Made by a program: the position numbers and the translations under genes
DNA from: Cladocopium goreaui
Taxonomy: Eukaryota; Sar; Dinophyceae; Suessiales; Symbiodiniaceae
DNA: 64,000 bases
NCBI GenBank assembly: GCA_947184155.2
Contig: CAMXCT020002085.1
Location: 52,023 to 116,022, forward strand
Direction: 5' to 3'
The notes under the pieces: generated by a model
The model's input: the letters and a program-made list of their open reading frames with translations, nothing else
Told to the model about the DNA's origin: nothing
Database searches by the model: none
Shown here: positions 1-64,000 of the stretch, piece by piece
Numbering within the stretch: the stretch's first letter is position 1
How the letters are laid out: every line of letters begins with the position of its first letter

Positions 1-1793
1 AAACCCACCCCAATTCCAAATCATCAGGGAGTCTCTACTCTGGAACTCGACTCCATCAGCATGAATGAATATTGGAATGGTAGTCTCAGGGTCTTGCACC
101 TGCCTTTTGGCAAGGCCCTTCCTTTTGTCAAGGCAGATGGGGTGGCCCTGCAGTCGATCATCCTGGCAAGCTTCAACTCCTCTCCAAAATTCATTCAGAT
201 GTTCAACACCAAACAAAGTTTCAAACTGATCTGTATAGTGGTGGAAAAGGTCTGCAAATAAAATGTGTGGCAGCAGAATGCCAGCTTTTTCCATAGACAC
301 CTGTGAAGTCTTTGGGTCTTTGCATTTTGTTTCAACTGGTGTGCTGCCAGAAATCTTGCAGTCCTTGGTGAAGCTGGCACACAAATCTCTGTGGCAATTC
401 CCAGGTAATGACCCATGACTTCCTGTTTTGGCAATGGTTGCCAAGTCATGGCCACTGGACCCAGTGAGAATTGCTTTGTGGGCAACATCTTGAACTAGTT
501 TTGCACTAAGCTGCCCATGGCTCCACAAGGACAAAAGTGTTTGTGCCAGCACACTCTGCTCACCATCCCCTTTGGCCAAGGGCTCTGTCTCTAGCTTGGC
601 CAGCTCCAAACCATGGCCCCTCAGTCTTTTGACTGGCTTCATGCTGCCCTTTTGTCAAGGGCACTGAGCACAAGCCTTTGGGCAAGGCATGGCTCTTTCC
701 CCTTTGAGGAAACACTTGAACCAAAACTTTGCACAACACTTGGCTTGCCAACCCTGCAGACCCTGCCAACCCTGGAGGCTTACCAACCCTTGGTGCTTCT
801 TAAGCTGTATGCTTTTTACAGCCCAATTATTAGATACCCAGAAAAAACTTGTGTGGTTTAGACCCTTGGTGCTTCTTAAGCTGCATGCTTTACAACCCAA
901 GTGGCTGACATACTTATACATACCCAGAAAAAACTTGTGTGGTTTAGTGGTGTGGTGTGCAGCCCCCCAACCCCCTGAACCACTTAAGTGTCTGTGCTGC
1001 AGCATTTTTTTGACTTGATGCCTGCTGTCGGTTTGCCAGCCAAGAGACCCTACATCACCCTTTGGTCAAGGGGAGAAGGTCTCATGTGGCTGCCTGTGCC
1101 TGCCAATTGCCTGGGCAATGGCAACATCAAAAACTGAAAGCCAATCACCTTTTGTCAAGGATATGGCGACATCAAAAACTTGAAGCCAGTCACCTTTGGG
1201 CAAGGTAGCACTGGAATTTAAACAAGATACTACCCTTTGCCACTAGCTATAGGTGTACTCTTTTGTCAAGAGCACACAGGGTCCTTTGGTCAAGGGCCCC
1301 TTTCAAAGCATTGTTGCTTCACTTTTTGCTGCTTTTGGAAAAGCTCTTGTTTGCCAATGCCTTGTATTCTTTCACTTCTGTTTTGACTTGGTTGGTGCAT
1401 ACCACTGCATCTTTGATGGTTTGCTTTGCTGCTTCCACATTGCCACCCTTTTTTTATTTGTAATTGCTTTGAGCTTTTGTTCCCATTCTTGGGCATGTTT
1501 CAAAGTCAGTTGTGCTTCCTTCCTGTCTTGCTTGGAAGTTCTGCCTGCTTGGTTAGCAGCTTCCAAAGCTTCTTCCAAGTTTCCCACTGCCACCCTGAGA
1601 TGCTCTTTGGATTTTTGTGCTTTTGTCAAGCACTCAGCCCATTGCTCTTCAGGTGTCTTCTTGTCTTTGTCATCTTCTGTGTCATTTGGGTCACCATCCT
1701 CTATGGCCAGCACTCCTCTGCCTCTTCCTTTGCTTCCTTTGCTCCCTTTGCCTTTTGTCAAGGCACCTTGGCCCTTACCTTTTGTCAAGGCAG
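1..1793 (-). pseudogene. Truncated duplicate of transposase-like gene
   Basis: This stretch matches 59,717-61,508 over its whole length with only a handful of single-base differences seen by eye. On the minus strand it repeats the middle part of the transposase-like gene (about 1-640) and the C-terminal part of its N-terminal lysine-rich ORF (about 1,290-1,793). Homology stops at 1,793, three bases after a CCTTTTGTCAAGG motif at 1,778-1,790, and the sequence then enters an unrelated satellite. The 5' half of the gene is therefore missing, and the copy cannot encode the full protein. The left edge continues beyond the window. It could be a very recent segmental duplication or an assembly duplication; the sequence alone does not decide. 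Confidence 0.8.
103..1633. repeat. Cluster of CTT-loop-AAG hairpin motifs
   Basis: This cluster contains short inverted repeats with inner stem CTT/AAG and a 5-nt loop. Examples are at 103-115 (loop TTGGC), 121-133 (TTGTC), 569-581 (TGGCC), 648-660, 675-687 (TGGGC), 1,059-1,071 (TGGTC), 1,148-1,160, 1,193-1,205 and 1,778-1,790. Two have altered but still paired outer stems: 1,258-1,272 (arms CTCTT and AAGAG) and 1,617-1,633 (arms GTGCTT and AAGCAC). The function is unknown. Confidence 0.85.
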
Positions 1794-40216: not shown

Positions 40217-40246
40217 ACTAAATTTACTACAAAAGCAGTGTCAGGG
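40217..40246. repeat. Right TIR of 5.9-kb element
   Basis: Ends GCAGTGTCAGGG; the inverted partner of 34,338-34,367. It is followed by the TG duplication at 40,247-40,248. Confidence 0.88.
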
Positions 40247-40394
40247 TGTGAGTCTCAGCCGAAGACATACTTCCCTGGCAGCATGGAGATCAGACGCCTG
40301 AAGTGAGGATCACTCAGAGCGAGGCCACGTGCAGCTCGGAAAGTTGCACCTTTTGGGGCAACCTTTTTATTTAAGATATATAATTAAAGAGGAG

Positions 40395-40526
40395 TGTGAT
40401 TTCAGTGCATCAGCAACATACCAACCATCGGTGTGTCCTCTGCAGCGGACCTTTTGTGGCTGAAGCGCCCATAGATGAGGAAAAGAGCCGCAGTGCAGCC
40501 CAGGTGGGGCCGAGCTACCATCGTCA
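40395..40526 (+). repeat. 3' LTR of copia copy 2
   Basis: Preceded immediately by the purine run AAAGAGGAG, a likely polypurine tract at about 40,386-40,394. It matches the 5' LTR with about four differences. Confidence 0.78.
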
Positions 40527-40539
40527 TATGTATACGAGC

Positions 40540-41750: not shown

Positions 41751-41785
<35 letters not shown>

Positions 41786-41790
41786 CACAC
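40540..41790. other. No clear gene; 1-kb segment between short direct repeats
   Basis: A direct repeat of 36 bases (starting TGTAAAACGATATAGTGAAG) occurs at about 40,611-40,646 and 41,610-41,645. The DNA between has only small ORFs with no domain seen. A TA/CA microsatellite fills 41,700-41,790. The duplicate lies at 50,130-51,380. Confidence 0.5.
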
Positions 41791-41925
41791 CGGGACCGAT
41801 TTTTGGCCCCGAAAAGTAAAATCTTTAGCCCTGAGAAGTGTTTTTTTTAGCCACGTAAATAGATTTAGCCACGAACAATCAACATCTTAGCCTTGAAAAT
41901 CGATTTTACATATTCCTTGAAAACA

Positions 41926-45890: not shown

Positions 45891-46220
45891 CAACAAACCC
45901 TGAGCATCGGATATTGATTGTAATCAATACTATTCTGAAAATATTGATTTCAGAGTTTTTTTCAATATTTTCTATTGATTTTAACACAGTTCAAAATCAA
46001 CAGGATTTCTGCCTTTTGGGAATCCACAACACACCAGATAGGATCAACAACTTAATCAATACAAAATTCAACAACATAATCAATATAAAGAAGCTTGAAC
46101 AACAATAAAATAAATCAAAACCCACAGCTTTTTAGTGCTAGTGTGGACACTCCAGGCTTTATATTACAGTTTTCTTTTTCATCTTCTTTCTTATTTGTCT
46201 GGTGAGACTGGGAAGTGAAG

Positions 46221-46692
46221 CATCCTTTGGTCAAGGATGGCAGACCTATCAGCTGCTTGTGGTGGGTGTCTCCAGGTACCCTTTTGCCAAGGGTGTGGCA
46301 GAAAGACTTTTGGCCAAGGACCATCTACCATTCTTCACCATCACTGTCTGGAGACACACCCAAGTCAAACCCAAGTCTTGTCAGCGGCATGTGCAAAAGA
46401 ATGCGATACTTAATCATGAGCTTGCCTGAAAGTCTTGTTGATTTGACTCCCATAGCCAATGATCTGGCTAATGTTGCCACCCTCCCCACAAAGTCTTCAG
46501 ATCTGAAGTTCCATGTGTACCTGGGATTCAAGAATTGTGCCTCCTTGACCAGGTGATGTTGGCAATGGTGCTTGTAGACAATGTGGTAAAGTTTATGGTC
46601 ATTCTTCTGGGCCCACTTGTTCAGCTCTGTGTAATGCCTGCAAAACCTTTGGTCAAGGTCCTGCATAGCTTGAAATTCCTTTGGGCAAGGAA
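46221..46692. repeat. Hairpin motifs with extended stems
   Basis: Three clear examples: 46,221-46,239 (arms CATCCTT and AAGGATG, loop TGGTC), 46,278-46,294 (ACCCTT and AAGGGT, loop TTGCC), and 46,676-46,692 (TTCCTT and AAGGAA, loop TGGGC). All recur in the duplicate at 55,731-56,202. Confidence 0.88.
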
Positions 46693-47016
46693 ACAGCCCT
46701 GCTGCATCAAATGCAGCAACCAAGTCCACCATTGCCTCCAGAGCTCCCACCATGCGTTGGTGAAGGGTATTGTTTGGTTCTAGTATGCTTTTCAGCACTG
46801 GTAAGAATGCACTGAGCAAATGTTTTGTCTCTGCTCCTTTTGCTTCTAGTTTGGCATACTCTTGGTGAGGCTTGGAGGGATCACAGATCATGCTCAATCT
46901 GAGGTTGGTGAGTCGAGTTGGTGTCTGAAGTTCCTTGTAATTTTCCTGAATCTTGGAGAAAATCAATGCCAGCCTTTGGCTGGGCTGCTTGTTTTGCTTG
47001 CCTCTGCCTTGGTTGT
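46325..47016 (-). pseudogene. Transposase-like C-terminus, truncated copy
   Basis: The minus-strand frame reads the same protein as 55,835-56,526, beginning inside RLALIFSKIQENYKELQ and continuing through KHLLSAFLPVLKSILEP, FCRHYTELNKWAQKNDHK and FRSEDFVGRVATLARS to the normal stop. The upstream part was lost when the duplication junction at 47,016 joined the gene to the 12-bp array. Confidence 0.8.
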
Positions 47017-48416
47017 TCTATCTGGCAAATCTTCTGGAATTCTATCTGGCATATCTTCTGGCATTCTATCTGACATATCTTCTGGCATTCTATCTGGCAT
47101 ATCTTCTGGCATATATTCTGACATATCTTCTGGCATTCTATCTGGCATATCTTCTGGTATATCTTCTGGCTATCTTCTGGCATTCTATCTGGCATATCTT
47201 TTGGCATATCTTCTGGCATATTATCTGGCAAATCTTCTGGGATTCTATCTGGCATATCTTCTGGCATTCTATCTGGCAAATCTTCTGGCATTCTATCTGG
47301 CATATCTTCTGGCATTCTATCTGACATATCTTCTGGCATATCTTCTGGCATTCTATCTGGCAAATCTGATGCATTCTATCTGGCATATCTTCTGGCATTC
47401 TATCTGACATTTCTTCTGGCATTCTATCTGGCGTTCTATCTGGCATATCTTCTGGCATATATTCTGACATGAGGTCCGGCAGGGAACACTTGGCATGGAT
47501 ACTCGTTGTTGAGGTCCGGCAGGGAACACTTGGCATGGATACTCGCGATTGAGGTCCGGCAGGGAACACTTGGCATGGATACTCGCGGTTGAGGTCCGGC
47601 AGGGAACACTGGGCGTGGATGGCCGTGGTTGAGGTCCGGCAGGGACCACTGGGCGTGGATGGCCGTGGTTGAGGTCCGGCAGGGAACACTGGGCGTGGAT
47701 GGTCGTGGTTGAGGTCCGGCAGCGAACACTGTGGATCGCGAGTCGCAGTTGAGCAGGAGGACGAGGAGGACAACGAGAGGAGGAGGACTACGAGAGGAGG
47801 AGGAGAGGAGGAGGAGAGGAGGCAGGAGGAGGAGAAGGCAACTTAGATAAAATCTAACAACCCTCACCTGGCAGGTGGGGAATTAATACTCTGAATCCCC
47901 AATTTTTTTTGGAGGCCCAAGTAAAGTGAAAGAGTCCAACCTTAAACTTAAACGCTGCATTTGGGAAGGCCCAGTGCCAATTAACAATTTTTATACTCTG
48001 AATCCCCAATTTTTTTGGGGAGGCCCAAGTAAAGTGAAAGAGGCCAACCTTAAACTTAAACGCTGCATTTGGGAAGGCCCAGTGCCAATTAAGAATTTAA
48101 TACTCTGAATCCCCAATTTTTTTGGGAGGCCCAAGTAAAGTGAAAGAGGCCAACCTTAAACTTAAACGCTGCATTTGGGAAGGCCCAGTGCCAATTAAAA
48201 ATTTAATACTCTGAATCCCCATTTTTTTTGGGAGGCCCAAGTAAAGTGAAAGAGGCCAACCTTAAACTTAAACGCTGCATTTGGGAAGGCCTGCCTCACA
48301 GAACCTTAAATTCATGGAGGGATTTTTTTGCGCGCAGTATTTTGTGAGAAATGCCATCAAAACATTTATTTACTGTAGAATTATTCGGACCTTTTCTCCC
48401 TTATGTCCCAACATAG

Positions 48417-48551
48417 CCTCCAAATGCCCCAACATAGGCCCAACATACCCTCGAAATGGCCCAGCATGGGCCGGACATAGCTTCAATATAGCCCCAACAT
48501 GCCCCAACAGACTAACAGAGACCCTTATGCCCCAACATCGGCCCACCCTAG
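48417..48551. repeat. 135-bp segment present only in copy 2
   Basis: It is flanked by the direct repeat AGCCTCCAAATG. The first copy (39,015-39,030) has one such repeat and lacks the segment between, as expected for a deletion by slippage. The segment is rich in CCCCAACAT-type repeats. Confidence 0.8.
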
Positions 48552-49984
48552 CCTCCAAATGGCCGAACATAGGCCCATGAAGGCCCCAAAATGTGCCTTT
48601 ACGTTGTCCCCTTTACAAAGCCTTGGCTGAAACTCAGCTACGCTGTCCCTTTACAAAGCCTTGGCTGAAACTCAGCTACGCTGTCCCTTTACAAAGCCTT
48701 GGCTGAAACTCAGCTACGCTGTCCCTTTACAAAGCCTAAGCTGAAACTCAGCTACGTAGACCCTTTAGAAAGCCTAAGCTGAAACTCAGCTACGTTGTCC
48801 CTTTACAAAGCCTAAGCTGAAACTCAGCTACGTTGTCCCTTTACAAAGCTTAAGCTGAAACTCAGCTACGTTGTCCCTTTACAAAGCTTAAGCTGAAACT
48901 CAGCTACGTTGTCCCTTTACAAAGCTTAAGCTGAAACTCAGCTACGTTGTCCCTTTACAAAGCCTAAGCTGAAACTCAGCTACGTTGTCCCTTTACAAAG
49001 CTTAAGCTGAAACTCAGCTACGTTGTCCCTTTACAAGGCTTAAGCTGAAACTCAGCTACGTTGACCCTTTACAAAGCTTAAGCTGAAACTCAGCTACGTT
49101 GTCCCTTTACAAGGCTTAAGCTGAAACTCAGCTACGTTGACCCTTTACAAGGCCTTGGCTGCAACTCAAGTATCTCATTTCCAGCATCCGGTAACTCAGG
49201 TATCTCAAGTTCCACAAGTAGGCCAAGTCTCCCACAAGTAACTCAAGTCACTGAAGTTTTTCCAGTAGCTCAAGTGAACCAAGTCATTCGCAACCCATGC
49301 AACTCCACGGAATGTAACTCACAGGTTCTTGGGAATGAACATATCTTCTCTCAAGCATACCTGTGTTCAAAAAACATTCACATGTAGTGTCTTACTGCTT
49401 TCATCTCAAGTACCTCAAGTATACTGCAATGTTCAATGGCAATTCATCCTCAAGTATCTCAAATATGTAAACTCACTATATTCAAATTGCAGAAGGGCCA
49501 GAGAAGATGACACTGTGCAAAACTTATGTTTATGTGTATTCATTTTAGCTTAAATCAGACATACTCTAACCTGCGCACCTTCCTTTCCAATATATAATGT
49601 GAATAAAATGTTGAAAAAACAAGAAAAATACATGTTTTTTTAGGACCAAAAAAATTACTATACATACTAAATAAATTTACTTAGTTTACTAAATAAATTT
49701 ACTTTGTCTACTAAATTTTACTTACCAAAGTAAATTTACTAGCCAAAGTAAAATAACAAGTAAATTTTGCAAAGTAAATGCCAAAAATTACTTAAATTTA
49801 GCGACTACTAAATTTACTACAAAAGCAGTGTCAGGGTGTGAGTCTCAGCCGAAGACATACTTCCCTGGCAGCATGGAGATCAGACGCCTGAAGTGAGGAT
49901 CACTCAGAGCGAGGCCACGTGCAGCTCGGAAAGTTGCACCTTTTGGGGCAACCTTTTTATTTAAGATATATAATTAAAGAGGAG

Positions 49985-50116
49985 TGTGATTTCAGTGCAT
50001 CAGCAACATACCAACCATCGGTGTGTCCTCTGCAGCGGACCTTTTGTGGCTGAAGCGCCCATAGATGAGGAAAAGAGCCGCAGTGCAGCCCAGGTGGGGC
50101 CGAGCTACCATCGTCA
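49985..50116 (+). repeat. Duplicated copia 3' LTR
   Basis: Copy of 40,395-40,526 at an offset of 9,590. It has no associated coding region of its own because only the 3' end of the element was duplicated. Confidence 0.85.
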
Positions 50117-51340
50117 TATGTATACGAGCAAGAGGCTAAACTCTCCGTGTAGGAGGTATGTATTCGAGCGCTCTCGTATGTAAAAATATGCATCTTGATA
50201 TGTAAAACGATATAGTGAAGTCCCAAAAACGATAACCTGGGAATCATATTATATGTAAAAGCATTGTGGGAAGTGAAGGGGTTGTGTACATGACATGATG
50301 GTGGATACCTGTTCTATAAGCATGTAGATCATCTAGGCTCTCAGTTGTGGGGTACACGTCATGCCCAGCTCACACTACGGAAGATGTGCAAAAGTATGCT
50401 GACACTCTTGATCCTGGCCAATTTCTTTATTTCTGATTACTGCAAACGGTTTCGTATCCAATCACGTATTGTTGTGTAGCTGGATTTGGATGCTCTTTTT
50501 GTCTCGCCATTGTTCAAGCCTTTCGGATGAGTTCCGCGCTTTCATGCAAGCAGTGACGATGACAACAGGTATCCTTTCCAACTTTCCTTGGTTCATGCCA
50601 TTTTCCCAAAAATGTTTCCCTCTTTGAACGATAACGAAAACGATAACTAAACGATAACCATTTCTTGACAAAATGTCCTTCGCTGATGGATGGCCCAGAT
50701 GCCAAAAGATTCTTGAGACCTTTGCCGTTTAATATTATCACTTGCTCATTGCGATCTTTTCGCTGCTATGCATATTCTTTTGCAGCGCTCCACTACTTTA
50801 GTCAATCCCGGTTCATCTCGGGCACAACTGCACCTGCAGGTCCGGTTTGACGATCTTTATACTAGATGAAGATAGCCAAGGCAAAGGCGTTGGACCAGGT
50901 CGATGGTTTGCTGCGCAGACGCTGGCGAGTGAATGAAAGGCATGGAGCATGTCGCTGTGAGAGCCCACCCGGGTTTCCTCCAACAAACTGAATTCAAAGC
51001 TTGTTTCTGAGCTGGAGAAAGGATGGTGCAACTGTGATTTGCAGTTGCGTTGGCAGGTATCACACCACACCCACCATACAGTTGAAGCGCTGGAAAAGAA
51101 AGCGCAGGGCAGTCAAAGATGCCTAAGACGCGAAGTGGAGGTGTAAAAAGGCTTTCCACATGCAGTTTGCCACGGGATGCGGATGATGCAATCAGGATAT
51201 ACTGTAAAACGATATAGTGAAGTCCCAAAAACGATAACTTTGCCCCGAGATCGCATTTTTCAATTGAGGTTTTGCCGATCGCTCATATGTATGTAAATAT
51301 ATATACATACATATATATATATATACACATACACACACAC

Positions 51341-51375
<35 letters not shown>

Positions 51376-51515
51376 CACACCGGGACCGATTTTTGGCCCC
51401 GAAAAGTAAAATCTTTAGCCCTGAGAAGTGTTTTTTTTAGCCACGTAAATAGATTTAGCCACGAACAATCAACATCTTAGCCTTGAAAATCGATTTTACA
51501 TATTCCTTGAAAACA

Positions 51516-54500
51516 GAACTTTGATGCTTTCTCGGTACACTTTGAAACTTTCTCAGTACAATTGTTATGGTTTCTCTGTAGAACCATGATGACATATCTC
51601 AGTACAATTTGAGGATTTCTCGGTATAATTTGATGATTTCTCGGTACAATACGATGATTTCTCGGTACGGTTTGATGATTTCTCGGTACGGTTTGATGAT
51701 TTCTCGGTAGGGTTTGATGATTTCTCGGTACGGTTTGATGATTTCTCGGTAGGGTTTGATGATTTCTCGGTACGGTTTGATGATTTCTCGGTAGGATATG
51801 ATGATTTCTCGGTACAATTTGATGATTTCTCGGTACGGTTTGATGATTTCTCGGTACGGTTTGATGATTTCTCGGGATAAGCGACCCAAATTGAATGGAT
51901 GGAGTATATTAAAGGGGGGGGCGAGGCAGGAGTCGGCGGACATTCACACACATATAGATATATACACCTAGACTCCCCGTGGGCTCTTTGTTTTTGCGCT
52001 TGATGCCTCCTGGTGGCATGGGCATCAGGACCCACGAGAGTAAGAATTCGCAAATTATGGGCCAAAAATAAATTGATCCCATTGATCCAATACCAAACCA
52101 GAGGTTTGTGGGGTTTGTGCACCAAAATTGAGCCAGAGTTGTTGCCTTGGAGGCCTGCGGGAGGGTTTGGAGAGGCCTGCAGGTAAGGGTTGTTGCCTTG
52201 GAGGCCTGCGGAGGCGTTTGGAGCATTTGAAGGCGGGCAAACGGCAGTCTTGAACCCCCTGAAAAACAGATGGCAAGGGCATGTAGCTGTAAGAGTTGTT
52301 GACTTGACTTGGAGGCCTGTTGCCTTGGAAGCCTGCGGAAGCGTTTGGAACATTTGAAGGCGGGCAAACGGCAGTCTTGAACCCCCTGAAAAACAGATGG
52401 CAAGGGCATGTATATATAGCTGTAGCTGTATAGCTGTAAGAGTTGTTGCCTTGGAGGCCTGCGGAGGCGTTTGGAGCATTTGAAGGCGGGCAAACGGCAG
52501 TCTTGAACCCCCTGAAAAACAGATGGCAAGGGCAGACAGTTGTTGCCTTGGAGGCCTTTGGGAGGGTTTGGAGAGGCCTGCAGGTAAGCGGAGGCGTTTG
52601 GAGGCGGGCAAACGGCAGTCTTGAACCCCCTGAAAAACAGATGGGAAGGGCATGTATAGCTGTAGCTGTATAGCTGTAAGAGTTGTTGCCTTGGAGGCCT
52701 GCGGAGGCGTTTGGAGCATTTGAAGGCGGGCAAGTCTTGAACCCCCTGAAAAACAGATGGCAAGGGCATGTAGCTGTAAGAGTTGTTGACTTGGAGGCTG
52801 TTGCCTTGGAGCCTGCGGAAGCGTTTGGAGCGTTTGAAGGCGGGCAAACGGCAGTCTTGAACCCCCTGAAAAACAGATGGCAGAGCATGTATAGCTGTAA
52901 GAGTTGTTGCCTTGAGATGGCAAGGGCATGTAGCTGTAAGAGTTGTTGCCTTGGAGGCCAACGGGAGCGTTGGGAGCGTTTGAAGGCGGGCAAACGGCAG
53001 TCTTGAACCCCCTGAAAAACAGATGGCAAGGGCATGTATAGCTGTAGCTGTATAGCTGTAAGAGTTGTTGCCTTGGAGGCCTGCGGAGGCGTTTGGAGCA
53101 TTTGAAGGCGGGCAAACGGCAGTCTTGAACCCCCTGAAAAACAGATGGCAAGGGCATGTAGCTGTAAGAGTTGTTGACTTGGAGGCTGTTGCCTTGGAAG
53201 CCTGCGGAAGCGTTTGGAGCGTTTGAAGGCGGGCAAACGGCAGTCTTGAACCCCCTGAAAAACAGATGGCAGAGCATGTATAGCTGTAAGAGTTGTTGCC
53301 TTGAGATGGCAAGGGCATGTAGCTGTAAGAGTTGTTGCCTTGGAGGCCTGCGGGAGCGTTGGGAGCGTTTGAAGGCGGGCAAACGGCAGTCTTGAACCCC
53401 CTGAAAAACAGATGGTAAGGGCAGAGAGTTGTTGCCTTGGAGGCCTGCGGGAGGGTTTGGAGAGGCCTGCAGGTAAGAGTTGTTGCCTTGGAGGCCTGCG
53501 GAGGCGTTTGGAGCATTTGAAGGCGGGCAAATGGCAGTCTAGAACCCCCTGAAAAACAGATGGCAAGGGCATGTAGCTGTAAGAGTTGTTGACTTGGAGG
53601 CCTGTTGCCTTGGAAGCCTGCGGAAGCGTTTGGAGCGTTTGAAGGCGGACAAACGGCAGTCTTGAACCCCCTGAAAAACAGATGGCAGAGCATGTATAGC
53701 TGTAAGAGTTGTTGCCTTGAGATGGCAAGGGCATCTAACTGTAAGAGTTGTTGCCTTGGAGGCCTGCGGGAGCGTTGGGAGCGTTTGAAGGCGGGCAAAC
53801 GGCAGTCTAGAACCCCCTGAAAAACAGATGGCAAGGGCATGTAGCTGTAAGAGTTGTTGACTTGACTTGGAGGCCTGTTGCCTTGGAAGCCTGCGGAAGC
53901 ATTTGGAACATTTGAAGGCGGGCAAACGGCAGTCTTGAACCCCCTGAAAAACAGATGGCAAGGGCATGTATAGCTGTAGCTGTATAGCTGTAAGAGTTGT
54001 TGCCTCGGAGGCCTGCGGAGGCGTTTGGAGCATTTGAAGGCGGGCAAACGGCAGTCTTGAACCCCCTGAAAAACAGATGGCAAGGGCAGACAATTGTTGC
54101 CTTGGAGGCCTGCGGGAGGGTTTGGAGAGGCCTTGGAGGCCTGCGGAGGCGTTTGGAGCATTTGAAGGCGGGCAAACGGCAGTCTTGAACCCCCTGAAAA
54201 ACAGATGGCAAGGGCATGTAGCTGTAAGAGTTGTTGACTTGACTTGGAGGCCTGTTGCCTTGGAAGCCTGCGGAAGCATTTGGAACATTTGAAGGCGGGC
54301 AAACGGCAGTCTTGAACCCCCTGAAAAACAGATGGCAGGGGCATGTATAGCTGTATAAGAGTTGTTGTATAGCTGTAAGAGTTGTTGCCTTGAGATGGCA
54401 AGGGCATGTAGCTGTAAGAGTTGTTGCCTTGGAGGCCTGCGGGAGCGTTGGGAGCGTTTGGAGCGTTTGAAGGCGGGCAAACGGCAGTCTTGAACCCCCT

Positions 54501-55390
54501 GAAAAACAGATGGCAAGGGCATGTAGCTGTAAGAGTTGTTGACTTGGATGCCTGTTGCCTTGGAAGCCTGCGGAAGGGTTTGGAAGGTTTGAAGCCGGGC
54601 AAACAGCAGTCTTGAACCCAGACAGCCAAGTTCCACACCTCCGGTGGTCCCAGGCGCCGCCCCTGCCTTGGCAAAGGCCGGGGTCGGCGGATATATATAT
54701 ATATATACCAAATTGTACCGAGAAATAATCAAACCGTACCGAGAAGTCATCAAATTGTAAAACCGTACCGAGAAAACATCAAATTGTACGAGGAAACATC
54801 AAATTGTACTGAGAAATCATGAAATCTCACCGAAAATCATCAAATTGTTCCGAGAGATCATCAAACCGTACCGAGAAATCATCGAACCGTACCGAGAAAT
54901 CATCATATATTGTACCGAGAAATCATCAAATTGTACCGAGAAATCATCAAACCGTACCGAGAAATCATCAAACCCTACCGAGAAATCATCAAATTGTACC
55001 GAGACATCAAATTGTACCGAGAAATCATCAAACCGTACCGAGAAATCAAATTGTACCGAGAAATCATCATATAGTACCGAGAAATCATCAAATTGTAGGG
55101 AGAAATCATCAAACCGTACCGATTAAATCATCAAACCCTACCGAGAAATCATCAAATTGTACCGAGAAATCAAATTGTTTCGAGAAATCATCAAACCGTA
55201 CCGAGAATCATCAAAATGTACCGAGAAATCATCAAATTGTACCGACAAATCATCGAATTCTACCGAGAAATCATCAAATTGTACCCAGAAATCATCAAAT
55301 TGTACCGAGAAATCGCCAAACCATACCGAGAAATCATCAAACCATACCGAGAAATCATCAAACCGTACCGAGAAATCATCAAACCGTATA
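51516..55390. repeat. Inverted minisatellite structure, second copy
   Basis: Duplicate of 41,926-45,890, with left arm about 51,516-51,880, core 52,066-54,625 and right arm 54,705-55,390. It differs by a few added or lost units (an extra pair of 22-bp units in the left arm, a shorter core). Confidence 0.85.
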
Positions 55391-55834
55391 CCAAGATTAA
55401 TCAACAAACCCTGAGCATCGGATATTGATTGTAATCAATACTATTCTGAAAATATTGATTTTAGAGTTTTTTCAATATTTTCTATTGATTTTAACACAGT
55501 TCAAAATCAACAGGATTTCTGCCTTTTGGGAATCCACAACACACCAGATAGGATCAACAACTTAATCAATACAAAATTCAACAACATAATCAATATAAAG
55601 AAGCTTGAACAACAATAAAATCAATCAAAACCCACAGCTTTTTAGTGCTAGTGTGGACACTCCAGGCTTTATATTACAGTTTTCTTTTTCATCTTCTTTC
55701 TTATTTGTCTGGTGAGACTGGGAAGTGAAGCATCCTTTGGTCAAGGATGGCAGACCTATCAGCTGCTTGTGGTGGGTGTCTCCAGGTACCCTTTTGCCAA
55801 GGGTGTGGCAGAAAGACTTTTGGCCAAGGACCAT

Positions 55835-56880
55835 CTACCATTCTTCACCATCACTGTCTGGAGACACACCCAAGTCAAACCCAAGTCTTGTCAGCTGCAT
55901 GTGCAAAAGAATGCGATACTTAATCATGAGCTTGCCTGAAAGTCTTGTTGATTTGACTCCCATAGCCAATGATCTGGCTAATGTTGCCACCCTCCCCACA
56001 AAGTCTTCAGATCTGAAGTTCCATGTGTACCTGGGATTCAAGAATTGTGCCTCCTTGACCAGGTGATGTTGGCAATGGTGCTTGTAGACAATGTGGTAAA
56101 GTTTATGGTCATTCTTCTGGGCCCACTTGTTCAGCTCTGTGTAATGCCTGCAAAACCTTTGGTCAAGGTCCTGCATGGCTTGAAATTCCTTTGGGCAAGG
56201 AAACAGCCCTGCTGCATCAAATGCAGCAACCAAGTCCACCATTGCCTCCAGAGCTCCCACCATGTGTTGGTGAAGGATATTGTTTGGTTCTAGTATGCTT
56301 TTCAGCACTGGTAAGAATGCACTGAGCAAATGTTTTGTCTCTGCTCCTTTTGCTTCTAGTTTGGCATACTCTTGGTGAGGCTTGGAGGGATCACAGATCA
56401 TGCTCAATCTGAGGTTGGTGAGTCGAGTTGGTGTCTGAAGTTCCTTGTAATTTTCCTGGATCTTGGAGAAAATCAATGCCAGCCTTTGGCTGGGCTGCTT
56501 GTTTTGCTTGCCTCTGCCTTGGTTGTAACACACATGGTGAAGCAAAGAGCCAAGCAGGTGTGAACACACACCTTTCACAAAAAGCACATGCAGCCCATCC
56601 TGTCGAACCATTCTAATGGTGAGGCCTGGGGTTTCAAACAGCTGGTGCTGGCTTCCTTTTGTCAAGGCTGCTGCTGTGTCAGTGTAAATGAATTTTTGGT
56701 TCTCTGGCAGCAATTCTTTGAAACTCTTCCCCTTCTCACAAGGCTTGCCTTTTATGAAAGGTTGCTGGGCATCACAAGCATGGCAGCAGTTGTGGGAATT
56801 CCAATGGGGCAGGTGAAGAACATTGCTGTACATTTCTTGGTCCCCTTGAATGGACCAAAGCACAGCCCTGTAACCTCTGC
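55835..56880 (-). CDS. Dinoflagellate transposase-like protein, C-terminal part
   Basis: The coding sense from 56,880 reads RAVLWSIQGDQEMYSN, LHLPHWNSHNCCHACDAQ (a CxxC pair), TIRMVRQDGLHVLFVKG, CSHLLGSLLHHVCY, TRLTNLRLSMICDPSKP, then FRSEDFVGRVATLARS and KLMIKYRILLHMQL. I associate this pattern with abundant repeat-encoded proteins of dinoflagellates. The GDQ, His/Cys and late Glu segments could be parts of an RNase H-like transposase, but I cannot assign catalytic residues. The open frame extends back to 56,956, but codons before 56,880 do not fit the family. The sequence GCAGAGGTTACAGG at its start also occurs where the middle part ends near 59,500. Confidence 0.6.
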
Positions 56881-57231
56881 AGTCTTGCTCCAGTTTTTGC
56901 AGTCTTGCTCCAGTTTTTCTTTCTCCTTTCTTTTTTCTTCTGCTTCCTTGGGCCACAAATAGTCATGCAACTCCTGTTTTGTCAACAGGTGTGGCTTTCC
57001 ATATGTTTTGTCAACAGCTGCTTTTGCCCAATCTATGTTGACATCTTCAAGTCTCATGTTTTTATTTTCTCTTTCCATTCCTTTTTTCCTGATTTTTTCT
57101 TTCCTGGCCTCTGTGGTGGTGCCAGTGCCCTGTTTTTTCCCCTTGTTGTTGAGCATGGCCCCTTTTGTCAAGGGAGCTTCCACAAGCTTTCTTTTGTCAA
57201 GAAAGCTAAAGAGGGGAAGCCCTTTTGTCAA
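56881..57231 (-). CDS. Lysine-rich ORF with LTKG hairpin peptides
   Basis: This minus-strand frame (which runs on to 56,752) starts MTKGLPLFSFLDKRKL and includes EAPLTKGAMLNNKGKK, then NIDWAKAAVDKTYGKPHLLT and QELHDYLWPKEAEEKRKEKE. Two copies of the hairpin motif are inside it, read as L-T-K-G or L-D-K-R. The product is basic and probably nuclear, and it may be a further exon of the transposase-like gene. The frame conflicts with the C-terminal ORF after 56,881, so the two are not one uninterrupted reading frame. Confidence 0.45.
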
Positions 57232-57341
57232 GGGCCTTTACTCCTAGTAGTCAAGCTTGAGTTTTCAAACAGCTGCAGTGGTAGAAAGGCCTGCCAGGTG
57301 TGAACCCCCCTTTAGTCAAGGCACCCAAAAGAACATGCACT

Positions 57342-57780
57342 GCATATTTTTCAGTGTGTTTCTCTAAAATTCCATGAAAAAACACCCTGAGAAAGTTTCC
57401 ATACATTTGAAATCAAGTTGGTGGGGCCAAACCATGAGAAAACCATCATGACACTTTGGTTGGGTTATCCACTTTTGTATCTGTTTTCATGTGGTGTATA
57501 TCTTCATTTGTTGTCAGAAAATGTGTACTTGATTGGTATATACATAATATATATATATATTTGTGTATATAATCAGTTTTCAAAATTTCAGTATATACTT
57601 AAAAAATAAATGTATATGCATATGAATGTATATATATAGAGTGTTTTTTGTAATATATATATATATATACATATTTTTGTTTTTTAACATTTATTTAAAT
57701 ATATAATTCAATTATTTATATTTAGTTCATTTATTTCATTTATTTGTTAATATATTTTCACCCCTTAATAATTTGTTCTT
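57342..57780. other. AT-rich non-coding stretch
   Basis: No gene seen. TA microsatellite sequence lies at about 57,540-57,670. Confidence 0.6.
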
Positions 57781-57991
57781 GTTGGCAACCTTTGGGCAAG
57801 GAGCCTGGGGTGAAACATACATAGCCCAACCATGTCAAACCTTTTGTCAAGGAATGACAGGTATCTGTGCAAGGGCCAGCCATGCATCAATTGGGCAGAT
57901 ATCTATAGCACCACCATTGCCTTTGCTGACTGAAACCCTTTTGTCAAGGGTAGGGGGCCCTTTTGGCAAGGAACCCCCAGGGCCAAAAGCC

Positions 57992-59086
57992 TTAGCTCAG
58001 CAACTCTTCTCTCAAAGCTCTGGCTTGCTCTTTGGTTAGATGCTCAGCTTGCAGCCTTCTGTGGATAACCCCAATCACCTCTCTGTATTGTGGGGTCATT
58101 TTCTTTGTCACTTCGGCTATGTGGTGAATAGGTTCAGGTGGCCCATGGCTTCCTTGGATGTAGGCCCTTTCGGGGTTCCTGGGATAGGTTACCTTCAAGG
58201 TTTTCCATGGCTGTTTTTTTGTGCTTACTGCAGCTGCAGGCCTTTTCATTTTGGAACCCTTCTTCTCTTTTTTGCATGTTTGTTTTTTACCCAAGGCCAA
58301 AGCTTTTGTCAAGCTTTGGTCTTGGTCCTTTGAGTTCCAGCTTGGTCTCTTTAGCACCAAAGAACCCTTTCTCCTTTTCAAAAAAGATCCCTCATCAGGT
58401 AATGCATTGGAACTGCTTGCTGCTGCTCCTTTTGTCAAGGGGCTGTCCTCCAATGGCAAGGCATTGGATTGCTGTGGGCTTTGCAAGCACTTGGGGAAGC
58501 CACTGGAATCCATGGAGATGGCAGAATCTTCTTTCTTAAGCTGCCTCCTTTTGGCAAGGGGGCCAGCTTCTTCTTCCTCTTGCTGCCCCCTTTTGTCAAG
58601 GGAAGCAGCTTCTCTTTCCTCATCACTGCTTTGCTCTGTGTCCTTGCCTGCCAAGTTTTGTGCAAGCTCTTTCAGCAGCTGGTATTCTTTTCCACTCACT
58701 TTTGCTGCTACTTTTGCAAGCTCTTCCTCAGATTTCAACCTTCTAAGATGAAGGAGGACAGTTGTAACCCTTTCTGCTCTCATGTTGCAGTATACCAGTC
58801 CATTGAAGTCTGTTGTGTTTATCTTCGGTTTGTGCTGGACCAGCTTCAGCAATGCTTGCCTCAGAGGACCTGGGTGGATCTCACCTGTGGGGGAAAGATC
58901 CAACAAAGCTTCCAACAGAGGCAGGCAATGCACTAGGCCCTTGGCATCTGTGGCTTGCTGCCTGCTGACAGTCTCATACCTTCCCAGTGAAGACACCAAA
59001 GAGACATGTTTGTTCAATGTTTGGAAAAGGACAAAGGGGACCACCATTGGCTTGGAGAAGTGCCTTGCCCCACCCCTGCTGGCCAT
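57992..59086 (-). CDS. Transposon-encoded protein, basic, LTKG-rich
   Basis: This 364-codon frame starts MASRGGARHFSKPMVVPF. An N-terminal helical part (LVHCLPLLEALLDLSPTGEI, NMRAERVTTVLLHLRRLKSE) is followed by an acidic and lysine-rich middle and a conserved-looking C-terminus with PWKTLKVTYPRNPERAYIQG and HIAEVTKKMTPQYREVIGVI. I recall this C-terminal pattern from dinoflagellate repeat-encoded proteins, but no enzymatic function is known to me. Several hairpin motifs are read as PLTKG, PLAKR or LTKA. It is upstream, in the same direction, of the other transposase-like pieces in this TIR element and probably belongs to the same gene set. Confidence 0.6.
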   Translation of the reverse strand: MASRGGARHFSKPMVVPFVLFQTLNKHVSLVSSLGRYETVSRQQATDAKGLVHCLPLLEALLDLSPTGEIHPGPLRQALLKLVQHKPKINTTDFNGLVYCNMRAERVTTVLLHLRRLKSEEELAKVAAKVSGKEYQLLKELAQNLAGKDTEQSSDEEREAASLDKRGQQEEEEAGPLAKRRQLKKEDSAISMDSSGFPKCLQSPQQSNALPLEDSPLTKGAAASSSNALPDEGSFLKRRKGSLVLKRPSWNSKDQDQSLTKALALGKKQTCKKEKKGSKMKRPAAAVSTKKQPWKTLKVTYPRNPERAYIQGSHGPPEPIHHIAEVTKKMTPQYREVIGVIHRRLQAEHLTKEQARALREELLS

Positions 59087-59489
59087 TGCTTCAAAACTAG
59101 AATCCTTTGGTCAAGGGTTCCTCCAAAACTAAGCTAGCTTTTGTCAAGCCAGCTACAAAATCTTGATGGATCCTACTTGAGACAGATGGTTGCATATGGC
59201 TCTCATGCAGTTTGGCCAGAAGCTTGGCCCATGGCACACACTCAAGATGAAAATCAACAGCAAAATCAATAGGAAAATCAACAACTTAATCAATACTGCA
59301 GAGGCATCAAAACATGTACATCTGAAGCCAAATCAATATTTTTGGATGAAAACAAATCAATAAAACAACTTGGTAGTTCTATTGATTTTTTCAATAACAA
59401 TTGGACAATCAATATCAATAGAAAACTATCTGTTCCTATTGATTACAATCAATATCCGATGCTCAGGGAATTGTACCGAGAAATCATCA

Positions 59490-60358
59490 AACCTGTAACC
59501 TCTGCCTGTGAGGGGCTGCCCAGCAAGCTGTTCAAAAATGGACCCTTTTGGCAAGGGTTCATTGTCAGGGCCAAAACATGGGTGTAAGCCTTCTTGCAGT
59601 GCTTCCAAAGACCATCGCACCCATTGCATGATGGGGGTCCAGGTGTCAGAGACTGTTGCAGATTTTGGCCAAGCACAGATCAGGAAATAGGAAGTCAAAC
59701 TGCTATGTGCATTGAGAAACCCACCCCAATTCCAAATCATCAGGGAGTCTCTACTCTGGAACCCGACTCCATCAGCATGAATGAATATTGGAATGGTAGT
59801 CTCAGGGTCTTGCACCTGCCTTTTGGCAAGGCCCTTCCTTTTGTCAAGGCAGATGGGGTGGCCCTGCAGTCGATCATCCTGGCAAGCTTCAACTCCTCTC
59901 CAAAATTCATTCAGATGTTCAACACCAAACAAAGTTTCAAACTGATCTGTATAGTGGTGGAAAAGGTCTGCAAATAAAATGTGTGGCAGCAGAATGCCAG
60001 CTTTTTCCATAGACACCTGTGAAGTCTTTGGGTCTTGGCATTTTGTTTCAACTGGTGTGCTGCCAGAAATCTTGCAGTCCTTGGTGAAGCTGGCACACAA
60101 ATCTCTGTGGCAATTCCCAGGTAATGACCCATGACTTCCTGTTTTGGCAATGGTTGCCAAGTCATGGCCACTGGACCCAGTGAGAATTGCTTTGTGGGCA
60201 ACATCTTGAACTAGTTTTGCACTAAGCTGCCCATGGCTCCACAAGGACAAAAGTGTTTGTGCCAGCACACTCTGCTCACCATCCCCTTTGGCCAAGGGCT
60301 CTGTCTCTAGCTTGGCCAGCTCCAAACCATGGCCCCTCAGTCTTTTGACTGGCTTCAT
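59490..60358 (-). CDS. Transposase-like protein, middle part
   Basis: This frame reads VEHLNEFWRGVEACQDDRLQ, ETTIPIFIHADGVGFQSRDS, FLICAWPKSATVSDTWTPIM and QWVRWSLEALQEGLHPCFGP, ending at AGQPLTGRGYR near 59,490. The H-x-D-G segment could hold a catalytic Asp of an RNase H-like transposase. The protein logically continues with RAVLWSIQGDQ at 56,880. At the break a CAG|GTTTGA donor-like site is present, and an acceptor-like TTACAG|G lies at 56,880, so an intron is possible. The last codons down to 59,426 are minisatellite and TIR sequence. Hairpin motifs are read as PLAKG, LDKRKGLAKR and PLPKG. A near-identical copy, truncated, opens the window. Confidence 0.6.
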
Positions 60359-60499
60359 GCTGCCCTTTTGTCAAGGGCACTGAGCACAAGCCTTTGGGCA
60401 AGGCATGGCTCTTTCCCCTTTGAGGAAACACTTGAACCAAAACTTTGCACAACACTTGGCTTGCCAACCCTGCAGACCCTGCCAACCCTGGAGGCTTAC

Positions 60500-60690
60500 C
60501 AACCCTTGGTGCTTCTTAAGCTGTATGCTTTTTACAGCCCAATTATTAGATACCCAGAAAAAACTTGTGTGGTTTAGACCCTTGGTGCTTCTTAAGCTGC
60601 ATGCTTTACAACCCAAGTGGCTGACATACTTATACATACCCAGAAAAAACTTGTGTGGTTTAGTGGTGTGGTGTGCAGCCCCCCAACCCC
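60500..60690. repeat. Two-unit direct repeat
   Basis: The segment from CCCTTGGTGCTTCTTAAGCT to ACCCAGAAAAAACTTGTGTG occurs twice (about 60,503-60,577 and 60,580-60,662). It interrupts the transposase-like reading frames and may be intronic. Copies are also at 787-945. Confidence 0.75.
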
Positions 60691-61005
60691 CTGAACCACT
60701 TAAGTGTCTGTGCTGCAGCATTTTTTTGACTTGATGCCTGCTGTCGGTTTGCCAGCCAAGAGACCCTACATCACCCTTTGGTCAAGGGGAGAAGGTCTCA
60801 TGTGGCTGCCTGTACCTGCCAATTGCCTGGGCAATGGCAACATCAAAAACTGAAAGCCAATCACCTTTTGTCAAGGATATGGCGGCATCAAAAACTTGAA
60901 GCCAGTCACCTTTGGGCAAGGTAGCACTGGAATTTAAACAAGATACTACCCTTTGCCACTAGCTATAGGTGTACTCTTTTGTCAAGAGCACACAGGGTCC
61001 TTTGG

Positions 61006-62328
61006 TCAAGGGCCCCTTTCAAAGCATTGTTGCTTCACTTTTTGCTGCTTTTGGAAAAGCTCTTGTTTGCCAATGCCTTGTATTCTTTCACTTCTGTTTT
61101 GACTTGGTTGGTGCATACCACTGCATCTTTGATGGTTTGCTTTGCTGCTTCCACATTGCCACCCTTTTTTATTTGTAATTGCTTTGAGCTTTTGTTCCCA
61201 TTCTTGGGCATGTTTCAAAGTCAGTTGTGCTTCCTTCCTGTCTTGCTTGGAAGTTCTGCCTGCTTGGTTAGCAGCTTCCAAAGCTTCTTCCAAGTTTCCC
61301 ACTGCCACCCTGAGATGCTCTTTGGATTTTTGTGCTTTTGTCAAGCACTCAGCCCATTGCTCTTCAGGTGTCTTCTTGTCTTTGTCATCTTCTGTGTCAT
61401 TTGGGTCACCATCCTCTATGGCCAGCACTCCTCTGCCTCTTCCTTTGCTTCCTTTGCTCCCTTTGCCTTTTGTCAAGGCACCTTGGCCCTTACCTTTTGT
61501 CAAGGCAGGGCCCTGGCCTTTGAAGGTAACCTCAGCCTCCTGCATGCTGGCCAAAGAGCCTTTGCCCCAATAGCTCATGAACTCCTTTTCATCCTCTGCA
61601 TCATCCATTTCCCTTTCCTGCCCCACTGTGACTTTGTGCTTTTTCTTCAGCTGGACCTGTTTGGTCAGGTCCCCCTGGTCACAGTATTGGTAGATGCCAG
61701 GGGTCCATGGGTCTGAGCGCCATTTGACCCTTCCTGATGCCAAGTGCTGTTCAAATTCATCTTTGCTGAAATCCTGCAGCATCTTGTGTTCACTGACCCA
61801 TTTCTCACCTTTTGTCAAGGTTTCACTGGCTTCTTTGGAGGTTTCTGTATGGAAGAACACACCTTTCTTGTGCTTGAGAAACCAAAGAACAACTTCAAGT
61901 CCTTTTTCCTTCTTCCCCAACTGCTCATGAGCCTCTTTCTCTTCTTCCTTTCCCTTCAAATAGGTTTTGTGCTTGGACCACAGCTTAGCAGATTCATCTT
62001 TTGTCAAAGAATCTTTTAAGACTATGGCTGCTTCCTCTGCTGTGTTTGCTTTTTCTGTTGCTTTTTTCACTTTCTCATCCAAAGTCAGCTTGCCCAGCTG
62101 GGCAAGCTTACCTTTTGTCAAGGTAGCTCTCTGATGTTTCCCTGTGGCTTTGCTTTTGCTTTTGGCTTTGGCCTTACTTTTTCCCTTTGGGCAAGGGCTT
62201 GCTTTGTTTTTCAAAATTCCAGGTTTCACTTTCTTTTTTGGTGCCATGTGCAAGAAGCTGGAGCTTGCAGATCCTACTCCTTTGGTCAAGGAGAGTACAT
62301 TTGCCTTTTGAACCAAAAGACTGAACAC
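61006..62328 (-). CDS. Transposase-like gene, lysine-rich N-terminal part
   Basis: This is an open frame of 440 codons. The first methionine gives MFSLLVQKANVLSLTKG, but methionine 28 (62,247), giving MAPKKKVKPGILKNKA with a nuclear-localisation-like start, is an equally good choice. The middle (AKLWSKHKTYLKGKEEEKEA, EKGLEVVLWFLKHKKGVFF, EKWVSEHKMLQDFSKDEFEQ, HLASGRVKWRSDPWTPGIYQ) matches a pattern I recall from dinoflagellate repeat-encoded proteins. Ten or so hairpin motifs lie inside, read mostly as L-T-K-G, including ALTKGKGQGALTKGKG. The C-terminus is coiled-coil-like. The function is unknown; nuclear and DNA-associated by composition. Confidence 0.6.
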   Translation of the reverse strand: MFSLLVQKANVLSLTKGVGSASSSFLHMAPKKKVKPGILKNKASPCPKGKSKAKAKSKSKATGKHQRATLTKGKLAQLGKLTLDEKVKKATEKANTAEEAAIVLKDSLTKDESAKLWSKHKTYLKGKEEEKEAHEQLGKKEKGLEVVLWFLKHKKGVFFHTETSKEASETLTKGEKWVSEHKMLQDFSKDEFEQHLASGRVKWRSDPWTPGIYQYCDQGDLTKQVQLKKKHKVTVGQEREMDDAEDEKEFMSYWGKGSLASMQEAEVTFKGQGPALTKGKGQGALTKGKGSKGSKGRGRGVLAIEDGDPNDTEDDKDKKTPEEQWAECLTKAQKSKEHLRVAVGNLEEALEAANQAGRTSKQDRKEAQLTLKHAQEWEQKLKAITNKKGWQCGSSKANHQRCSGMHQPSQNRSERIQGIGKQELFQKQQKVKQQCFERGP

Positions 62329-63636
62329 ACAGAAACAGAATCAAACTTGGATGCCTTCCTATTTGCCTGTTGAGAAACTTTGACAAAAGAGTTTCACATA
62401 AGCTTTTTAAACACATATATTTTCCTAGGCCAACAGCTTTGGGAAAACTAAATTTAGATTTTTCTTGTTCTTGGATGAACAGCCTTGACAAAAGGTTGTT
62501 ACATTCAATTCTATGCTACCAACCATGTGGAAACAAAATTGGGAAAAACAATATATATTGTTTTTAACTTTTTCTGAAAATATACAAAAAAAAATTGACC
62601 AAATTTGACTTTTGGTCAAATTTGGTCAAATTTGGTCAAATTTTTATTTTTCTATTTTTTATGATTATGTTGTTTATTTTTTTATTTTTTTTGTATTGAA
62701 ACAATTTCAAAGGTGAAGATCTGGCCACAACCTTTTGTCAAGGCTGCAATCCAGACAGCACCCAATGCTTATACCTTGGATTCACTCTGAGTTTGAAAGT
62801 GGAAAACCTGTGCCCCAAATGGTTTCTTACCAATTGTGTTTCATACTGGAATGAATTTTGGGGAGGAATGGTTTGAAATACAAAATTCAAAAACACCTAT
62901 GGCTGCTGAACCCCTTGAACAAAACAAAATTCAAAATATTTCACATAAAGATTTGAAAGGCAACTGGAAAATATTCCCTTGGTTGTAAAATTGCACCAGG
63001 AATACCAAAAAAATATATGGACACTTCCAATGAACATTTTTTTTGTCAAAGTATATTGTTTCAAAATAGTATCTACCTTTCTATTTTTCTATATATATAT
63101 AAATATATATATATTTAACTATATGTGCAAAACATGCCCAGATAAACAAATAATATATATATATATGCCTCAAAGCCTTGTTCAAAATAACATTTACAAA
63201 TATCACCAGAACAAAAGTTGAACAACATTGAAACCATTTACTGTATTTCAAAATACTCTGAATGAAAGAATTGAAAGATAACCACTACCCATAGGTTCCA
63301 TATATTGTAAAGTAAGTGCAGTTTGCCCAAAATAGTTCTTAATAAAATTGTTTTGTTTTTCAAAAATATTCTTATTGAATTTTATTATAATCTTTATTTA
63401 TTTGTTATTTTTATTTTTCATTTTCATCCATATTGTGTGCTCATCACCTTGCTTCATTCCTTTTGCCAAGGAAACAGCAGTGATGTGAAACTGGCTGGTC
63501 CCTTCTTGTCAGGGATGCAAGCCCTTTGGTCAAGGGACTTGCCACCAGCCATAAAAATTCTGCAAAACTACTGGCAATTCCCTTTTGTCAAGGGGAGGTG
63601 CCTACAAACCCTTTTGTCAAGGGAATGTGTGGCCCC
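62329..63636. other. AT-rich upstream region with hairpin motifs
   Basis: No convincing gene. A short GGTCAAATTT tandem lies at about 62,610-62,645 and a TA microsatellite at 63,090-63,165. Reverse-oriented hairpin motifs are at 62,375-62,396 and 62,484-62,496. Promoter elements for the minus-strand gene would lie here, but none can be identified. Confidence 0.5.
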
Positions 63637-63962
63637 CTACTTGCCATCCAAAAAGTGCCACACAGCCACATCAAAACTGGGGTAGGTGTTCATACCCCAG
63701 CCATGGGCATTCCACCAGGGCACAATTGCCCAGCACTCAATACCCCACTGGCCACACTCTTGGATCACATCCCACCTGTCATCAAACAGGATCTTGATGC
63801 CTGCCCTGTGCAGAGCTTGGGCCTTCCCCTCCCTGCCACATGGTTTGTGCCACACCAGTTGCTGTACACCCCATCACTCAGGAAATCTGTTTCCTTTTGC
63901 CTGTCTGGCCCAGAGTATGAACATAGGAAAATGTCATACCCTGCATCCTCCAGCTTCTGCAA
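63637..63962 (-). pseudogene. HAD-like phosphatase fragment, frameshifted
   Basis: Two minus-strand frames join into one domain. The first (63,962 down to about 63,830) reads MQKLEDAGYDIFLCSYSGPD and VYSNWCGTNH; the second (to 63,637) reads REGKAQALHRAGIKILFDDR, then VIQECGQWGIECWAI. The order S-Y-S/G..., then Lys (GKAQAL), then FDDR resembles motifs II to IV of HAD-superfamily hydrolases, which remove phosphate from small molecules. A frame change near 63,820-63,835 breaks it. The N-terminal DxD motif is not visible. Confidence 0.4.
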
Positions 63963-64000
63963 GGCCCTCCTTTAGTCAAGGCACCCAAAAGAACATGCAC

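Follow-up and report, generated by a model that had tools for sequence, protein, structure and literature searches.

Arrays of putative RNA hairpins with lineage-specific GNRA-type loops in a four-gene DNA transposon of Cladocopium goreaui

The stretch of Cladocopium goreaui DNA considered here (C2085:52023-116022, 64,000 nucleotides; hereafter the window) carries copies of a four-gene DNA transposon of about 9 kb with 32-bp inverted ends. A short hairpin motif recurs throughout the element, and the sequence comparisons below give good support to selection acting on it as an RNA hairpin. The window alone does not reveal that these hairpins are part of a transposon superfamily whose kindred lineages have different loop types: judging from their DNA, related elements of the same genome bear hairpin arrays with other GNRA-type loops. 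The binder and the purpose of the hairpins we infer. On present evidence they are probably recognition sites scattered along the mRNA and bound by an RNA-binding protein, itself probably encoded by the element, with a loop code specific to each lineage.

In the mRNA sense the motif reads CCUU-GNCNA-AAGG. More generally, the predicted hairpin consists of a core of CUU paired with AAG (UUU replacing CUU where the third pair is U·G), variable complementary pairs and a mostly GNRA-type loop. The window has CTTTNGNCAAG at 61 places, against a mean of 1.24 and a maximum of 6 in 100 shuffles. The micro-hairpin family reported in a preliminary description of this DNA is thus real, and the effect is stronger than was noted there. 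When the duplicates 1-1793 and 45898-47016 are left out (a tandem duplication of about 9.5 kb includes both 46.2-46.7 and 55.7-56.2 kb), 43 distinct CTTTNGNCAAG sites lie on the plus strand and one on the minus strand (62484-62494). Over the genome searched (1,165,616,438 bases in 6202 contigs) the motif exceeds its reverse-order control, with 17,930 against 10,599 occurrences of CTTTNGNCAAG and 873 against 109 of CCTTTTGTCAAGG. The first 100 of these 873 places are mostly clustered within a few to about 9 kb, with single ones on C14, C28, C39 and C402. Searches of the window for tRNA genes and Rfam families matched neither, and two control stretches of it (25 kb) contained one hairpin of this kind.

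That a foldable structure is maintained and not a bare 13-mer, as the preliminary description held, is borne out by the outer stem. At the 43 window sites, complementary partners are found 43 times at pair 4 (33.9 expected), 28 at pair 5 (11.7), 22 at pair 6 (11.1), 18 at pair 7 (10.7), 21 at pair 8 (13.1) and 16 at pair 9 (10.9); 0, 0, 1, 15, 9 and 122 of 2000 shuffles, respectively, do as well. Pairs 4-8 therefore exceed shuffled partners, whereas pair 9 does not clearly do so. Stems reach 9 bp with locus-specific sequence, those at 57185 and 58297 both being of this length and different. All five fourth-pair changes cited earlier are present, but two of them (1258 and 1617) are duplicate copies of 60976 and 61335. 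The same pattern holds when sites are chosen by the core alone. Over 14 loci, 216 of 222 cores are in the mRNA sense and 6 are antisense. Among these 216 sites, 149 are complementary at pair 5 (58.9 expected), 114 at pair 6 (56.2) and 80 at pair 7 (56.0), values reached by none of 1000 shuffles. Pairs 4-7 and 9 stand far above the shuffles, and pair 8 does not (73 of 1000).

The mismatches tell on which strand the structure forms. Where a stem has a single internal mismatch, this is G·U in 42 cases, A·C in 9 and another combination in 12; the antisense strand has one stem of this kind. When pairs 4 and 5 are Watson-Crick, the third pair in the 14 loci is U·G 45 times, G·U once and C·A five times; U·G is common or the rule in L044 (20/38), L049 (11/14) and L051 (12/13), the latter two being loci with GGAA loops. 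Because U·G would read as a C·A mismatch on the other strand, the sequences indicate that it is the sense strand that forms the structure. Mean predicted energies are lower for sense than for antisense in all 14 locus sets. Thirteen ORF4 genes contain 94 hairpins where shuffling of synonymous codons predicts 9.28, and their antisense strands contain 5. Between homologous sites chosen by core only, 201 comparisons have both sides of a pair (4-6) altered yet complementary, where shuffling gives 45.9 on average and 88 at most. The coding sense of the motif is more varied than first described. Of 18 cores in four ORF stretches, 11 are in an L-x-K-(G/A) frame, in keeping with the L-T-K-G reported, while seven are in other frames, five giving L-(D/A)-(K/Q)-R and two P-C-P-K. 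The last is the supposedly avoided CCT-TGA frame; it is used, but with TGC in place of the would-be stop TGA.

Among 52 ORF4 relatives longer than 500 amino acids, those without L(T/A/P/S)KG have recurrent SLEK, ALEK, LEKG and LGKG words instead, and the DNA of ten more ORF4 loci accords with different hairpins underlying these words. The loops there include GNUGA, GNUAA, GAAA, GGAA and GGAAA. The prevailing loop is GNUGA in L045, GNUAA in L047, GAAA in L050, GGAA in L049 and L051 and GGAAA-like in L052 and L054; L046, L048 and L053 have mainly GNCAA. The loops mostly fall into GNRA tetraloops (GAAA, GGAA) and GN(N)RA pentaloops (GNCAA, GNUGA, GNUAA, GNARA), which presumably fold like GNRA loops. 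The commonest is GACAA, with 98 of the 355 hairpins that have TT/AA inner pairs in 14 loci. Loop types agree in 334 of 421 site pairs within one locus versus 77 of 294 locus pairs at one site; as far as these sequences go, loop type is tied more closely to lineage than to site. At two homologous places in ORF4 a hairpin is found in 12 and 11 of 13 loci; its loop and stem vary from locus to locus and, at the former place, so does its reading frame. Intermediates are seen: GUUGA among GNCAA loops (L053) and among GNUAA loops (L047), and GUUAA and GNGAA among GNUGA loops (L045).

A full-length copy carries about 45 hairpins in coding regions, at their borders and in spacers. Between the ends of L043 there are 43 sense cores and one antisense core, and none in 340 and 616 flanking bases; in C2 the figures are 41 and one within 127-8875, with no core in the 633 bases outside. 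Core density in L043 is 3.0-5.8 per kb in the ORFs, all four of which have cores, and 4.5-11.3 in the spacers between them. In the GAAA lineage, 21 sense and no antisense hairpins were counted over 4 kb (the end of ORF2, just behind it, and ORF3), with one weak hairpin in the stretch between the end of ORF2 and ORF3.

Three pairwise comparisons of copies gave 61 motif sites in common and six private to one copy. Of the private sites, five align without gaps and differ by substitution; the remaining one is in a gapped part close to where the compared region ends, and there an insertion is possible. C2 and a contig copy (98.6% identical) have 46 sites in common and one private each, both via substitution. 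Against L043, 9 of 10 motifs in the ORF3 region are common at 75.8% DNA identity, and the ORF4 region has six common and three private motifs (two ungapped, one in a gapped stretch). Since motifs are shared between copies and private sites are mostly substitutions, the array is old, constrained and changed mainly by point mutation. Insertion of the motif into empty sites of relatives, expected of a mobile hairpin, is not the pattern at these five sites, and the idea of a tiny mobile element or its footprint finds no support. A recombination site was also suggested and is likewise unsupported; the breakpoints at motifs (1793 and 63971) are explicable by repeated short homology.

The full-length element measures 8.6-9.1 kb end to end, with all four genes on one strand. 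The copy with both ends in the window (Table 1) was compared with a full-length unit at contig 42646-51774: its positions 55409-56880 match the contig stretch ending at 44117 and 56894-59468 that from 49198. Homology of the second copy to others stops at the motif at 63970. Rearrangement has split the two halves of ORF4 in the first copy. The rearrangement breakpoints between element copies at 1793 and 63971 coincide with a hairpin motif or fall within a few bases of one.

ORF4 is predicted to be a transposase. At least 124 relatives exist in public data and at least 67 ORF4 loci in the genome, and the predicted structure of one relative (P0001) has a RAG1/Transib-like fold over the catalytic core. 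An alignment of 33 sequences has invariant D226, D329, C351, H584 and H588 and nearly invariant C348 and E607. In spacing, these putative catalytic and zinc-binding residues come close to the DDE triad and C2H2 zinc site of RAG1. The evidence spans L043:746-2734 (-), alignment A1 and the window at 59429-60370 and 55838-56962. One internal TGA is seen in eight ORF4 rows of the window's family (C2, C169, C2085, C2223, C4955, C5824), perhaps an inherited defect. A sequence search of the PDB gave no relevant match. The terminal repeats of RAG1/Transib elements start with a CAC heptamer, and their target-site duplication is 5 bp. The present ends, in contrast, begin CCCTGAGC and read CCCTGAGCATCG, so that the CAC start is lacking; the flanks of L043 and of contig 4353-13465 have at most 2 bp in common, but the contig copy may be rearranged. 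The element also differs from RAG1/Transib in its three companion genes. The literature covered, which was seen in part and took in few subscription papers, holds no description of a RAG1-like transposase in a dinoflagellate. A fold of this kind in such an element bears on the origin of the RAG recombinase.

As to the companions, models of ORF1 relatives have an N-domain made of helices and a small C-domain of beta-alpha type. ORF2 (L043:5498-6652 (-), L044:2108-2737, L055) is weakly HAD-like. HAD motif I is D-x-D; phosphatase activity of ORF2 is doubtful because the presumed motif I reads D-W-H/Y-x-T instead. All listed relatives of ORF4, ORF1 and ORF3 that bear an organism name are from Symbiodinium or Cladocopium (P0081, P0089, P0135, P0143, P0168), most of those listed being without one.

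Table 1. Transposon copies, genes and selected predicted hairpins in the window
Feature	Position	Strand	Remarks
Predicted RNA hairpin, 9-bp stem	57185..57207	-	AGCTTTCTT / AAGAAAGCT on plus strand; RNA loop GACAA
Predicted RNA hairpin, 9-bp stem of other sequence	58297..58319	-	CCAAAGCTT / AAGCTTTGG; loop GACAA
Predicted RNA hairpin, 7-bp stem CATCCTT / AAGGATG	55731..55749	-	loop GACCA
Predicted hairpin with T/A fourth pair	60974..60988	-	L043 counterpart (3115): C/G, 9-bp stem
Sole opposite-sense core in the window	62484..62494	+	upstream of ORF3
Transposon copy with both ends	55409..59468	-	L-end 55409, R-end 59468; about 5 kb of the middle missing
Second, partial copy	59492..63971	-	ORF4 N-half, ORF3, part of ORF2
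Partial copy	1..1793	-	99.7% identical to 59717-61508; ends four bases past a motif
Left end of another copy	45898..47016	-	within 9.5-kb tandem duplication; 4 motifs
Left terminal inverted repeat, 32 bp	55409..55440	.	end comparison
Right terminal inverted repeat, 32 bp	59437..59468	.	length taken from contig copy
ORF4 N-terminal half	59429..60370	-	63.7% amino acid identity to L043 ORF4
ORF4 C-terminal half	55838..56962	-	67% amino acid identity, L043 ORF4 residues 318-663
ORF3, lysine-rich, about 400 aa	61009..62340	-	69% amino acid identity to L043 ORF3; 7 hairpin cores
ORF2 fragment, weakly HAD-hydrolase-like, over two frames	63640..63971	-	protein comparison, profile scan
ORF2 N-terminal fragment (basic region)	56755..57237	-	43% over 90 columns to L043 ORF2
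ORF1, about 370 aa	57995..59110	-	48% amino acid identity to L043 ORF1

The rest of the window is rich in repeats. The tandem duplication (37646-47016 and 47021-56526) is full of minisatellites with 12/24-, 38-, 40-, 106- and ~122-bp units. A 21-bp satellite, GTACCGAGAAATCATCAAATT, adjoins transposon ends in both orientations (41930-42243, 45256-45877, 51520-51875, 54765-55383), and a ~171-bp tandem array with (GCT)n (1833-4962) begins shortly after the end of the partial transposon copy. Copia-type polyprotein (RVT_2, rve) and CCHC zinc-knuckle ORFs are found at 6667-10017 (-), 12311-13780 (-) and 28517-30874 (+).

We propose that transcripts of this multi-gene DNA transposon would carry the hairpins as RNA, the motif being their trace in the DNA. 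A trans-acting RNA-binding protein would read the loop and coat or mark the element's own mRNAs, co-evolving with the loop. Since the lineages live together in one genome and yet each keeps a loop type of its own, this reader protein is probably element-encoded and not a host factor. Candidates would be ORF1, the lysine-rich ORF3 and ORF2, the last because of a basic N-terminal region found in three aligned elements. The benefit, the least certain part, may be self-recognition of element mRNAs, which could lead to protection from RNA-level silencing or decay, or to selectivity in export, in translation or in assembly with proteins of the element.

Should a host factor read the hairpins instead, be it RNase III or another decay enzyme, the silencing machinery or an exploited host RNA-binding protein, the RNA-level structure in the sense strand would be accounted for too. 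This is unlikely, since no fewer than five loop types are found side by side in the genome, each the predominant one of its lineage, and a single host reader would favour one. Stable GNRA-capped hairpins might also stabilise mRNA or modulate translation without any specific reader, a notion with which the lower energies of the sense strand agree, but which leaves the single prevailing loop type per lineage (334/421) unexplained and which we deem improbable. Dispersed packaging signals, by which the element RNA would be packaged in a particle as in single-stranded RNA viruses, seem quite unlikely. Multiple dispersed stem-loops sharing a recognition motif do define such signals, in the part of the source consulted (PMC6281560), and the arrays span the whole element. 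However, an RNA intermediate is not expected for elements with inverted ends and a RAG1/Transib-like transposase fold, and a scan of nine proteins gave no viral structural family above the Pfam cut-off (below it were a phage tail tube row for ORF3, E 0.0094, and a TLP-20 row for ORF1, E 0.0013).

A signal at the DNA level could resemble the VANC-bound arrays of plant VANDAL transposons, whose motifs, according to the portion of the report available (PMC5735166), are likewise short, dense, in one orientation, family-specific and co-evolving with the protein. But the hairpins lie within coding regions, their stems co-vary, and U·G is tolerated far above C·A, which is unexpected for double-stranded DNA binding. 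The coding strand folding as a hairpin of single-stranded DNA would be compatible with this asymmetry; as a whole, a DNA-level signal is very improbable. It is hardly credible that the hairpins are functionless products of a mutational generator, either quasi-palindrome correction via template switching or a mobile micro-hairpin. Template switching can leave perfect stems of varied sequence, and one of the six private sites is in a gapped stretch, but the other five are substitution-only, and the strand bias, wobble pairs, lineage-specific loops and single hairpin in the 25-kb control all speak against it.

Several observations weigh against a recognition code carried by RNA hairpins. Its transcription, folding and binding are all steps that we infer from DNA. 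In the first count, 18 sites of CTTT-type loci had no excess of outer pairing, and these loci exceed expectation solely in the wobble register. The case for wobble pairing gains little from lineages that lack U·G third pairs; L044, L049 and L051 supply most of the 45 U·G, and L049 and L051 are alike. Sites in related elements are not independent. GNCCA loops, which do not fit GNRA, are frequent in the window family (TGGNC on the plus strand), and further exceptions are GNUCA, some GNCA tetraloops and GNCUA, the last found, like GNCCA, in the window family, in L043 and C134 and in isolated cases. Different loci have hairpin positions of ORF4 in common at a rate little above random placement: those common to at least four loci number 8, against a random mean of 3.43 and a maximum of 8 in 500. 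Structural comparison of ORF1 gave no convincing fold match. Finally, four families (window/C2, L043, L044, C134) each have a reversed core, or two, upstream of ORF3, at 62484-62494 of the window, L043:4500, L044:2890 and 3659 and C134 tile 1191 and 1502; the spacer upstream of ORF3 in the GAAA-lineage locus L055 has none. They perhaps mark an antisense start near a promoter.

With these points in mind, the recognition-site reading may be extended, as a possibility that we would not yet call probable: RAG1/Transib-like dinoflagellate transposons might tag all of their mRNAs with about 45 GNRA-type hairpins, the loop of each lineage (GNCAA, GNUGA, GNUAA, GAAA, GGAA or GGAAA) and its co-evolving reader protein forming an RNA bar code by which co-resident transposons distinguish their transcripts from rival and host ones. 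If so, a DNA transposon would mark its own mRNA structurally over its whole length, and co-resident related transposons would keep separate RNA codes, amounting to RNA-level discrimination of self from non-self. They would then also provide a naturally occurring set of hairpins with their matching proteins, and would make transposon-host conflict in dinoflagellates directly testable.

BoxB comprises a few antitermination sites of phages; here some 45 copies are spread along a DNA transposon of a eukaryote, and an N-type protein is not among the products identified. Still, the boxB/N system of P22 and lambda has the closest known loop, our commonest loop, GACAA, being identical in sequence to that of P22 boxB. 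In the part of the account consulted (PMC12550061) this is a GNRA-like pentaloop in which the C is looped out and touches the N peptide, and it is at this third loop base that the GNC and GNU pentaloop lineages differ. The search of the literature, again partial and with few subscription papers, yielded no description of such hairpin arrays in any transposon, and the portions seen of PMC9860276, PMC9087856, PMC11453091 and PMC3731211 hold nothing comparable on RAG1, transposases or hairpins. The introner-like introns of Amoebophrya, as far as the source was available (PMC11453091), have inverted repeats of 8-20 nt in non-canonical introns. These too are short inverted repeats in a dinoflagellate, but they belong to mobile introns, whereas the present hairpins are inside transposon coding regions and spacers and have no insertion sites. 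The packaging signals of RNA viruses such as MS2 are likewise many scattered stem-loops with a shared loop motif (PMC6281560, seen in part), but our element is a DNA transposon, for which neither a capsid nor an RNA genome is known. VANC motifs resemble the hairpins in being dense, one-oriented and family-specific transposon motifs that co-evolve with a factor. However, they are DNA motifs mainly in noncoding tandem repeats (PMC5735166, in the part consulted), whereas here putative RNA hairpins with independent flanks occupy genes and spacers alike, with cores in all four ORFs and U·G preferred over C·A.

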